Shown: positions 19,687 through 21,326 of the stretch, piece by piece
How the letters are laid out: each line of letters opens with the position of its first letter
Position numbering within the stretch: the first letter of the stretch is position 1
Source of the DNA: Ornithinimicrobium sp. F0845
Lineage (GTDB): Bacteria > Actinomycetota > Actinomycetes > Actinomycetales > Dermatophilaceae
Reading direction: 5' to 3'
Assembly: GCF_023015765.1 (NCBI RefSeq)
Contig: NZ_JALKAL010000009.1
Coordinates: forward strand, 62,173-126,172
DNA: 64,000 nucleotides
Program-made: the position numbers and the translations under genes
Notes under the pieces: generated by a model
Told to the model about the DNA's origin: nothing
Seen by the model: the letters and a program-made list of their open reading frames with translations, nothing else
Database searches by the model: none

Positions 19687-20772
19687 TCAGGTGGTCCGGC
19701 GCCGCCGGACCGCCCCGGCAAGGTCACGCAGGACGTCCGCAGTGGTCTCCCACGACATACAGGCGTCCGTGACCGACTGGCCGTAGGTGAGACCGGACGG
19801 AGCCGGCTCCTGACGACCGGCCACCAGGAAGCTCTCCAGCATCACCCCCACGACCGATCGGTTGCCGGACGCGACCAGCGCCCCGATCTCACCCGCCACC
19901 TGGGCCTGCCGGACGTGGTCCTTGCCGCTGTTGCCGTGGCTGGCGTCGACGACCAGGCGGTCATCGAGGCCTGCGCCGGACAGCAGCCGCCCGGCAGCGG
20001 CCACCGAGACCGCGTCGTAGTTGGGTCCGCCCCGGCCCCCGCGCAGGATGACATGGCCGTCGGGGTTGCCCTCGGTCTCCACGAGCGCGGCCCGCCCGTC
20101 CTCATCCACGCCGAGGAAGGTCTGCGGCGCCCCCGCCGCGACGCAGGCGTCGACCGCCACCTGCACGCTGCCGTCCGACCCGTTCTTCAGACCGACGGGC
20201 ATGGACAGCCCGGAGACGAGCTGCCGGTGCACCTGGGACTCGACGGTGCGAGCCCCGATCGCGCCGTAGGTAACGGTGTCCGCGATGTACTGCGGCGTGG
20301 TGGTCTCCAGGTACTCGCACCCGGCCGGGACACCGGCGCGCAGGACGTCCAGCAGGACGCGGCGCGCGAGACGCAGTCCCCGCGGGATGTCGTAGGTGCC
20401 GTCCAGGTCCGGGTCGTTGATCAGTCCCTTCCACCCGGTCGTGGTGCGGGGCTTCTCGAAGTAGACCCGCATCACGACGGCCAGGTCGTCGGCCAGCTCC
20501 TCACGCAGGGCCGCCAGCCGGGTGGCGTAGTCGACCACTGCGACGGGGTCGTGGACACTGCACGGGCCGACGACGACGAGCAACCGGTCGTCCGTGCCGC
20601 GGAGCACGTCCTGGACCTCGGACCTGGACCGGGCGACCAGGTCGGCCAGGTCGGCGGGCAGGGGCTGCTCGGCCAGGACCTGCGTCGGCGCCGGCAGCGG
20701 CTCCATGCGCCGCACGCGCAGGTCGCCCGTTCGGGCGGTCTGCTGGGGGGTGGCGCTGTGTGTCGTGCTCAT
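19687..20772 (-). CDS. aroG: 3-deoxy-7-phosphoheptulonate (DAHP) synthase, class I
   Basis: The protein has 361 residues. It condenses phosphoenolpyruvate and erythrose 4-phosphate in the first step of the shikimate pathway. Class I motifs: GPCSVHDPVAVVDYATRL, RVYFEKPRTTTGWKGLINDP, ARRVLLDVLRAGVPAGCEYLE, SGLSMPVGLKNG, and DASHGNSGK near the end. It is of the AroF/G/H type, normally feedback-regulated by an aromatic amino acid. ATG 20772 has GGAGGA (20785-20780) at good spacing. Upstream lie a leader peptide rich in aromatic codons and strong inverted repeats, suggesting attenuation control. Confidence 0.95.
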   Translation of the reverse strand: MSTTHSATPQQTARTGDLRVRRMEPLPAPTQVLAEQPLPADLADLVARSRSEVQDVLRGTDDRLLVVVGPCSVHDPVAVVDYATRLAALREELADDLAVVMRVYFEKPRTTTGWKGLINDPDLDGTYDIPRGLRLARRVLLDVLRAGVPAGCEYLETTTPQYIADTVTYGAIGARTVESQVHRQLVSGLSMPVGLKNGSDGSVQVAVDACVAAGAPQTFLGVDEDGRAALVETEGNPDGHVILRGGRGGPNYDAVSVAAAGRLLSGAGLDDRLVVDASHGNSGKDHVRQAQVAGEIGALVASGNRSVVGVMLESFLVAGRQEPAPSGLTYGQSVTDACMSWETTADVLRDLAGAVRRRRTT

Positions 20773-20842
20773 CGGGTGTTCCTCCTGCGTGGAGGCGGAT
20801 CACCCTCGGCTCCCGGAGCGCCCGCCCTGTGAATGGGGAAGG

Positions 20843-20868
20843 GCGCGGACCATCTGGTCCACGCCCTG
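20843..20868 (-). promoter_or_regulatory. terminator-like hairpin in the aroG leader
   Basis: On the minus-strand RNA, GGGCGUGGACCA and UGGUCCGCGCCC flank a 2-nt loop, 12 bp with a single G-U pair. It lies between the leader peptide and the DAHP synthase start and is followed by UUCCCC. It could be the attenuator. Confidence 0.6.
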
Positions 20869-20869
20869 G

Positions 20870-20919
20870 TCGGCTCCGGTGTGCGCGTCAGCTGAGCTTC
20901 GCGCCGGCCGGAGCCGACC
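20870..20919 (-). promoter_or_regulatory. 12-bp perfect inverted repeat overlapping the leader peptide codons
   Basis: GGTCGGCTCCGG at 20870-20881 is the exact complement of CCGGAGCCGACC at 20908-20919. On the RNA the first arm is the Gly-Ser-Ala-Pro codons directly after the Tyr-Trp-Leu-Phe codons. It can alternatively pair (one bulge) with a segment near 20806-20816 just before the DAHP synthase ribosome site. The two pairings exclude each other. Confidence 0.6.
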
Positions 20920-20950
20920 CAAAGAGCCAATACTGACGAGCGCAGGTCAT
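20888..20950 (-). CDS. leader peptide of the DAHP synthase gene
   Basis: This is a 20-codon ORF, ATG at 20950, stop TGA at 20888-20890. It begins MTCARQYWLFGS and ends AGAKLS. Tyr, Trp and Phe codons are clustered at positions 7, 8 and 10, and these are the end products of the pathway whose first enzyme is encoded downstream. A -10-like TATCCT at 20962-20957 lies 6 nt before the A of the ATG, the arrangement of leaderless actinobacterial transcripts. No Shine-Dalgarno is present. Ribosome position on the aromatic codons would control the folding of the inverted repeats that follow. Confidence 0.75.
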   Translation of the reverse strand: MTCARQYWLFGSAPAGAKLS

Positions 20951-20984
20951 GGTTGGAGGATACACGCACCCGTCCCCGGGCATG

Positions 20985-21074
20985 AGCCAGGGCCCGTGCG
21001 CCGTTGGTGCCGATCCCCCAGCGGCCGGGTGCCGCCGGTGGTCCCGTTGTCTACTGAGCGCGCGGGCCCTGGCT
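20985..21074 (-). ncRNA. possible structured RNA or long stem upstream of the aroG leader
   Basis: AGCCAGGGCCCGTGCGC (20985-21001) pairs with 21058-21074 over 17 positions with one mismatch. The 56-nt interior contains a GCGGC/GCCGC hairpin. It would be transcribed from the TTGACA promoter at 21242, either as a small RNA ending at this stem or as a long 5' leader of the aroG message. No known RNA family is recognised. Confidence 0.35.
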
Positions 21075-21208
21075 TGTCCACCGTCATGCAATGTCGACTG
21101 CTCACCCAGGCAGGGGTGGGCGTTGGCACGGCTCCGTGGAGCTGACGCCCCTCCTGCGCAGGTGGGCTGCCGCTGGTCCCGATCGTGCCGGAACCGGTAG
21201 CGGACCTG

Positions 21209-21242
21209 AGGGCTAACTTAGCCCTCCCGCTCGTCATGTCAA
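21209..21242 (-). promoter_or_regulatory. sigma-70-type promoter with palindromic operator
   Basis: On the minus strand TTGACA (21242-21237) is followed after 16 nt by TAAGTT (21220-21215). The -10 is embedded in a perfect 17-nt palindrome, AGGGCTAA-C-TTAGCCCT (21209-21225, plus-strand reading), which looks like a repressor site. Transcription would run toward the DAHP synthase leader. Confidence 0.55.
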
Positions 21243-21326
21243 ATGGCCGCTGACCTGCGCTTTTGCGCGTTTGTGCAGGTCAGGACAGCGCTGGGAACGC
21301 TCGACTTTCGATGAGCGGTCGCCCCG

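Follow-up and report, generated by a model that had tools for sequence, protein, structure and literature searches.

The gene for the entry point of aromatic biosynthesis, the first gene of the shikimate pathway, is preceded at this locus by a short open reading frame (ORF) with codons for Tyr, Trp and Phe, and by several inverted repeats. The question raised is whether this arrangement adjusts the enzyme to the supply of its end products and, if so, by which switch. The gene (aroG; 19687..20772, minus strand, where all positions refer to the window, the whole stretch of 64,000 nucleotides analysed) encodes a class I DAHP synthase of the aroFGH type with 361 amino acids, and its score of 480.9 bits against TIGR00034 lies above the curated cut-off of 173.2. 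Based on sequence comparison and folding, we believe that the upstream region is probably a ribosome-mediated attenuator of class I DAHP synthase, with a likelihood that we put at roughly 0.8. Its leader most likely tunes the enzyme to aromatic amino acid supply.

The elements of this region, all on the minus strand, are arranged in a compact series. A -10 box (TATCCT, 20957..20962) ends 6 nt before the ATG of a 20-codon leader ORF (20888..20950, MTCARQYWLFGSAPAGAKLS*), which is found in the ORF list, carries Tyr, Trp and Phe codons just as an initial sequence-only reading had described, and is of the kind read in the 150 records discussed below. The aromatic run in this ORF is TAT TGG CTC TTT (Tyr-Trp-Leu-Phe, 20921..20932), with TAT at 20932-20930, TGG at 20929-20927 and TTT at 20923-20921. 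Right after the Phe codon, and still within the ORF, comes arm 1 of an inverted repeat (GGTCGGCTCCGG, 20908..20919), followed by the stop codon and by arm 2 (CCGGAGCCGACC, 20868..20879). Next are a GC-rich, terminator-like hairpin B (20841..20866) with one G-U pair in its stem and a tail, TTCCCCATTC, that holds no U-run, and then a G-rich element C (GGGCGGGCGCTCCGGG, 20812..20827). The sequence CCGCC (element D, 20794..20798) stands directly upstream of the Shine-Dalgarno (SD) sequence AGGAGG (20781..20786) and the aroG start codon ATG at 20772, both read from the sequence; it can pair with the 5' half of C, a pairing weakly supported by the partner-swap test described below. The sequence-only reading had recognized the inverted repeat and the second hairpin and had placed arm 1 correctly (20919-20908), although its coordinates for arm 2 (20870-20881, now 20879-20868) and for hairpin B (20843-20868, now 20866-20841) were each 2 nt off. 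The 201-nt strand folds better than all 200 of 200 dinucleotide shuffles (z -5.59).

The first reading proposed to check the arrangement by alignment in related actinobacteria. That it is more than a product of chance follows from its recurrence: the leader is found in 150 actinobacterial records that correspond to 143 places, 7 of them fetched twice, and to 130 distinct ORFs, and both stems show compensatory changes. Because a search for aromatic pairs helped to find these leaders, the presence of aromatic codons in all of them is partly a product of selection, and the fraction found in each sample is the fair measure. The gene for class I DAHP synthase itself was detected in 16 of 58 relatives at E<=1e-3. 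For the order the count is 101 of 396 genomes at E<=1e-100, and for the class it is 58 of 296 at E<=1e-90. Among the 17 class I loci from the relatives search, 14 carry the leader, one is cut by a contig end (L012) and two lack it (L016 and L017). The leader is present at all 27 of the loci L098-L124 and at 41 of 48 further loci of the order, where two of the seven misses are additional gene copies in a single genome and the other five belong to a family designated f4. It also stands at 26 of the 35 named actinobacterial loci examined (of 80 fetched), whose genera include Streptomyces, Isoptericola, Puerhibacterium, Dietzia, Mycobacterium, Gordonia, Rhodococcus, Nocardia, Amycolatopsis, Micromonospora and others; among these 35 loci it was not found at L022, L024, L029, L031, L032, L034, L041, L046 and L052. 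In the class sample the count is 33 of 51, which leaves out six further printed ORFs that are the ends of upstream genes, and the 18 misses are 17 members of a family f35 and one locus masked by N (L228). A codon pattern for YWRFxxAPGGA matched nine of the 296 genomes of the class, once in each, with 0 control matches, and all nine matches stand before class I DAHP synthase.

Two families thus have the gene with no leader detected, f35 (0 of 17 loci) and f4 (0 of 7 loci). As read from the sequences, an upstream ORF of f35 is also present in a Nocardiopsis record, whereas f4 resembles Bifidobacterium records, which are likewise without leader. Five of the 17 f35 loci (L240, L241, L242, L245 and L252, Nocardiopsis-like) have a palindrome similar to CGTCTCA-N5-TGAGACG some 160-180 nt upstream of DAHP synthase. 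This palindrome occurs in 3 of 211 other loci and in none of four named relatives, and it is perhaps a repressor site that replaces the attenuator. A different case is genome G316, with three class I DAHP synthase genes, where a leader precedes one (L119) and was not found before the other two (L127 and L128). Outside the actinobacteria, some class I DAHP synthase genes of Proteobacteria were noticed to have aromatic leader-like ORFs (for example FYFWFSVPGG and FWYFFYP) 154-221 nt upstream, namely in Burkholderiales, Betaproteobacteria (L062, L069, L073, L088 and L093) and in Leisingera (L091). They probably represent leaders of this type that are independent or only distantly related.

The genus to which the window belongs offers a view of how closely leader and gene are associated. 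All 31 of its genomes have a class II DAHP synthase, 12 of them also have the class I gene, and the leader is found in exactly those 12. A covariance model of the leader (R1) matches the 12 gene-bearing genomes with E<=6.2e-18, matches that arise by construction, since the underlying alignment (A1) contains 11 of these 12 leaders. The same cannot be said of the other 19 genomes, where the model finds nothing better than 0.0033 and where the absence is not by construction. The leader is absent where the class I gene is absent; therefore, it is no general feature of the genomes of this genus and accompanies the gene. Five weak matches of R1 in genomes without the gene (L275-L278 and L280) are, as judged by eye, hairpins beside tRNA sequence. 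No leader was found before the class II gene at 30 loci of the genus, for which the upstream window was set by the open frame, such that a true start was possibly missed. Three of the genus leaders (L008, L009 and L011) are without Trp.

The start of the transcript is suggested by a signal that played no part in choosing the records. A TAnnnT sequence ends 6-8 nt before the leader start codon in 150 of 150 records, compared with 15 of 1200 at shifted control positions. This predicts a leaderless transcript that starts at or adjoining the leader start codon, in agreement with what the sequence-only reading had proposed from TATCCT in the window. Tyr codons are present in 150 of the 150 leaders, Phe codons in 144, Trp codons in 134 and all three in 129; among the 130 distinct ORFs, the corresponding numbers are 130, 124, 115 and 110. 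The idea that one leader senses all three charged tRNAs would thus suit the majority, whereas the remaining leaders miss at least one of the codons, mostly Trp. Codon choice is strongly skewed in the 130 distinct leaders, with TAT used 156 times and TAC 7 times (of 163 Tyr codons), and TTT 116 times and TTC 34 times (of 150 Phe codons). The DAHP synthase genes themselves, counted at 100 loci, have 23 TAT versus 529 TAC (of 552), and 11 TTT versus 661 TTC (of 672). The distance from the last aromatic codon to the start of arm 1, by the anchor that our script used, is 3-6 nt in 135 of 150 records.

Support for the stems comes from an alignment (A1) of 79 of the 100 non-identical leaders that share the layout of the window (group I), from which near-duplicates and the false ORF L041 were left out. 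Across these 79 leaders, 89.0% of stem cells are paired and 16 of 24 pairs have changed on both sides, 11 of the 12 pairs of hairpin B among them. Changes on both sides amount to 229 cells, compared with a mean of 76.0 (sd 6.7) after shuffling, and none of 500 shuffles reached this value. Sliding the partner abolishes the support, a control that is favourable to the structure, as this was taken from the window's own sequence. Columns 45-47 and 49, in arm 1, are invariant in all 79 rows. When each leader's own partner segment was swapped for those of other families, the own partner was better in 79 of 79 leaders both for arm 1 with arm 2 and for the two sides of hairpin B; under other segment limits these values are 74 of 79 and 79 of 79. 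Of 36 segment pairs tested in this way, only these two were favoured in 10 of 10 families. Next are C with D and the aromatic codons with the ORF end (7 of 10 families each), followed by four pairs at 6 of 10 families each: arm 2 with C or with the 3' arm of B, and arm 1 with the ORF end or with the 5' arm of B. Among these six runners-up, C with D and arm 2 with C gain the most, at 2.4 kcal/mol each, where C and D as cut for the test overlap by 12 nt. For C with D, the own partner is better in 57 of 79 leaders.

A leader-peptide attenuator is expected to have a short ORF rich in codons for the end products of the pathway and a stem that overlaps this ORF and has a competitor downstream. The former is present, with the aromatic pairs being part of the search, and the latter emerges from comparison and folding as follows. 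Covariation and free folding pair the whole of arm 2 with arm 1, and partner swap, covariation and folding mark arm 2 as the switching strand, which can alternatively pair through its part 20879-20873 with element C. Hairpin B overlaps neither arm and is kept in both predicted states. We folded 134 leaders by partition function, which are the 150 records without 13 that have a second layout and without three of odd layout (L038, L045 and L110). In the free fold, arm 2 is paired with the ORF at a mean probability of 0.91. With 14 nt of arm 1 masked, it is paired with C at a mean probability of 0.77, compared with 0.25 when the downstream part is shuffled. The masked value exceeds 0.3 in 117 of 134 leaders (109 of 123 without repeats), a lenient threshold that 35% of the shuffled downstream parts also pass, and it is above the mean of the leader's own shuffles in 119 of 134. 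Arm 2 does not form this helix under masking in 17 of the 134 leaders, and in 8 of 134, L010 included, the pairing reaches 0.3 even unmasked.

In the window, the predicted change is nearly complete, with arm 2 at a probability of 1.0 with arm 1 in the free state and 0.96 with C when arm 1 is masked (shuffles 0.33); its partner is then GCTCCGG (20819-20813). On fixed alignment columns, the pairing of arm 2 with C is 73.7% paired and has one pair changed on both sides. We think that this poor score is due to a shifting register, and the own partner is better in 58 of 79 leaders. Concerted changes of both strands can be read in distant lineages, as in TCGACACCCGG:CCGGGTGTCGA (L021), CTCACCCGG:CCGGGTGAG (L174), CAGAGCC:GGCTCTG (f12) and, by our reading of the arms in these sequences, CGAGCCGGC:GCCGGCTCG in Micromonospora (L084, and similarly L254). 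The sequence-only reading had suggested that arm 1 itself pairs with a segment at 20806-20816. This pairing can be drawn here, but it is not conserved, as the own partner is better in 35 of 79 and 32 of 79 leaders. Element C at 20827-20812, acting as the competitor of arm 1 for arm 2, is the better supported candidate by the folding model.

This model also makes a prediction about the amino acid that matters most. By the usual footprint, a ribosome whose A site is occupied by the Phe codon would shield about 9-10 nt downstream of that codon, and one waiting at the Tyr or Trp codon would shield little of arm 1. In the window, masking 8 nt of arm 1 is enough to move arm 2 to C and masking 4 nt is not, which, given this footprint, fits a stall at the Phe codon. 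Shortage of Phe is therefore predicted to be the strongest signal.

We propose that regulation would proceed in the following manner. A leaderless transcript would begin at the leader ATG, and a ribosome would translate the 20 codons, whose Tyr-Trp-x-Phe run uses mostly codons that end in U. With an ample supply of aromatic aminoacyl-tRNAs, the ribosome would depart and arm 2 would pair with arm 1. If the ribosome instead halts when the last aromatic codon has entered its A site, most of arm 1 would be covered, and arm 2, now free, would pair with C in a helix closed around B. These two states would then set the output of DAHP synthase. We infer that charged tRNA would be the signal and that starvation would raise expression. 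For the output step itself we can offer guesses, the most likely being that C, unless it is bound by arm 2, obstructs ribosome binding at aroG or transcription beyond this site, perhaps with B acting as a pause or a weak terminator. Control of translation by masking of the SD sequence was considered and found no support, since two-state folding of 88 leaders (104 less 15 without a usable start and one with a long spacer) shows no consistent change: the SD sequence becomes more open in 15 of 88 and less open in 13 of 88, where some of the SD picks look wrong (for example L013, L018, L021 and L154). In the window, it sits in a hairpin in both states.

These folding results are what might favour the view that translation of the leader merely brings ribosomes to the mRNA or stabilises it, with no amino acid signal involved. 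Such a role predicts neither an aromatic run kept across families nor the extreme bias to TAT and TTT, and we regard it as the least credible of the readings considered here. Arrest of the ribosome by the nascent peptide, triggered by a free aromatic amino acid, which the first reading offered as an alternative, would account for the AP(G/A)GA-like residues that recur past the aromatic run in distant lineages. However, these residues are encoded by arm 1, whose invariant columns point to a constraint on the RNA. Moreover, two loci (L136 and L165) keep the arm-1 DNA in a different reading frame (CSGGARV and GSGGA, versus ALEGPA in relatives). The same two are among the 17 leaders that do not form the helix of arm 2 with C when masked, and they may be decaying copies or sequence errors. 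That the arm-1 part is kept as RNA and the aromatic codons are kept as codons speaks for sensing of tRNA supply and against an arrest peptide, an explanation that is weakened to the point of being very improbable.

The textbook trp-type transcription attenuator, in which B would terminate transcription intrinsically and arm 2 would form the antiterminator by pairing with the 5' arm of B, has more in its favour and is still unlikely. Conservation of hairpin B extends across the 79 aligned leaders, TT..TT is frequent in its tails, and some of these (such as TTTTTCTTTG in L027 and TTTTCGTTTTT in L023) resemble U-tracts. In addition, the five tRNA-side hairpins in those genus members that do not have the gene are followed by tails such as TTCGCC or TTCTCG, and one tRNA of the window's own genome (L314) has a hairpin with the tail TTCGCC, so that such tails may suffice for termination. 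Only some of the hairpins behind tRNA genes in the own genome look like terminators, in a rough survey for which strand and 3' end were guessed and 4 of 30 tRNAs had no recognisable T loop. A terminator scan of 20700-21100 in the window gave no terminator-like site, and B has no U-run there. For the pairing of arm 2 with the 5' arm of B, the own partner is better in 35 of 79 and 37 of 79 leaders, no more than for swapped partners. The classical 2:3 antiterminator, as in the trp-type attenuation to which the sequence-only reading likened the leader, was rejected on this basis, and no antiterminator that would open B was supported in the swap tests on the 79 leaders. Thus, two hallmarks of a trp-type attenuator, an intrinsic terminator with a U-run before the gene and an antiterminator built with the terminator's 5' arm, were not found. 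The similarity of the tails behind some tRNA-linked hairpins to that of B makes B a possible weak terminator or pause site within the attenuator that we favour.

A second layout is seen in 13 leaders (group II: L033, L035, L039, L040, L042, L043, L049, L070, L092, L258-L260 and L262) from Rhodococcus, Nocardia, Amycolatopsis and Pseudonocardia, whose peptides resemble QRAYFWFSRPxxGG. In these, a compact hairpin, CGAGCCGG:CCGGCTCG, with a short loop takes the place of arm 2, B and C of group I. As we read it, the helix of Micromonospora-like lineages, CGAGCCGGC:GCCGGCTCG, has a hairpin inserted in its loop, in contrast to the compact form of Rhodococcus and Nocardia. The predicted fold of group II keeps the compact 2:3 hairpin even with arm 1 free in 12 of 13 leaders, and folding therefore does not show the switch logic of group I for group II. 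Single loci offer a 3:4 helix near the SD sequence (L033 ACAGACCG:CGGTCTGT, L035 CAAGCCG:CGGCTTG and L262 GAACCGG:CCGGTTC). With 8 of 13 in the swap test and persistence of the 2:3 hairpin in 12 of 13, we consider this helix to be suggestive only, and it was not retained.

A further, tentative reading, which we hold to be possible at somewhat less than even odds, is that group I represents a separate class of attenuator spread over many actinobacterial families. In this class, the alternative partner of arm 2 would lie beyond a permanent hairpin, B, so that the loop of the ‘on’ helix would contain this hairpin. RNA polymerase would then be held at B, as at a site of pausing or decision, immediately before it makes the competing strand. 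If the attenuator that we favour is real, many actinobacteria with a class I enzyme would gate entry to the aromatic pathway by one kind of RNA leader, whose switch layout lies outside the textbook trp scheme. For metabolic engineering, such a leader would be an obvious candidate brake.

A second structured element came to light in the course of this work. Directly upstream of the leader, at 20978-21093 of the window (minus strand), is an element of about 116 nt that was collected from loci L331-L356. It has a near-invariant AGUAGACAAC and a CCNAANRG-like stretch in an internal loop between two covarying stems, and 21 of its 25 predicted pairs have changed on both sides among 23 sequences. A strong place for it exists in 31 of the 31 genomes of the genus (E<=2.4e-8), where one genome has a second weak match and five show the same place on the opposite strand, and it has matches in 28 of 198 genomes of the order. 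At 25 of 26 fetched loci, a match to lnt (apolipoprotein N-acyltransferase) lies within about 1.5 kb, and lnt often starts within ~150 nt downstream where aroG is not in between. In the window, the leader ORF and aroG stand between the element and lnt. The element also occurs without the leader and is thus apparently independent of it. It has no match in Rfam, and a literature search at the level of titles gave nothing obvious. It looks like a cis-regulatory RNA of lnt.

Likewise, the aroG leader was not recognized by existing family models. Seven Rfam matches to 20500-21300 of the window at E<=5 are all under the gathering score, 18 loci searched at the gathering score gave only two tRNAs, and NCBIfam has no family for the five leader peptides tested. 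Mycobacterial leaderless uORFs with polycysteine are said to be amino-acid-responsive attenuators, to judge by the title of a 2020 study by Canestrari et al. These have the leaderless leader ORF in common with the present case, and they concern cysteine and other genes. The closest parallel is the aroR-aroF attenuator of Corynebacterium glutamicum, for which the original study is reportedly that of Neshat et al. in 2014.

Comparable systems in the literature share some features with the leader and differ in others. A survey of Actinobacteria by Seliverstov et al. 2005 (PMC1262725) gives, in the parts available to us, candidates for Trp, Cys and Leu (ilvB) and ileS T-boxes; for the remaining amino acid pathways it reports no conserved structures. 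Its trp attenuators likewise have a short ORF with codons for the regulated amino acid and competing stems, but they differ in having poly-U terminators and complementary triples shared by antiterminator and terminator (PMC1262725). The uORFC-13-1 motif before aroF of Acholeplasma, for which the accessible text proposes aromatic-leader attenuation, is similar in having a uORF with Phe codons before a DAHP synthase gene (PMC8632094). It differs in its consensus, its adjoining intrinsic terminator and its restriction to Acholeplasma and environmental sequences (PMC8632094). In the literature searched, from which subscription papers were mostly beyond reach, we found no description of such a leader for actinobacteria outside Corynebacterium. 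Even so, the statement of the sequence-only reading that it knew of none in this group does not stand, given that aroF of C. glutamicum has a reported attenuator, aroR, with Phe-Tyr-Phe in its leader (described in the excerpts seen of PMC4046766, PMC11802643, PMC7356990, PMC3890552 and PMC6892785). In both systems, an aromatic leader peptide precedes the DAHP synthase gene, and the host is an actinobacterium with another DAHP synthase besides. According to the same partial sources, stalling raises aroF expression under Phe limitation. A review, as far as its available text goes, states that aroF responds to the availability of Phe and not of Tyr, which matches the dominance of Phe predicted here (PMC11802643). 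The present leader differs from aroR, which we could compare by description only, in its Tyr-Trp-x-Phe run and in the switch of arm 2 around hairpin B. Our best reading of the locus is therefore a putative ribosome-mediated attenuation akin to that of aroR-aroF in C. glutamicum, with an unusual layout.
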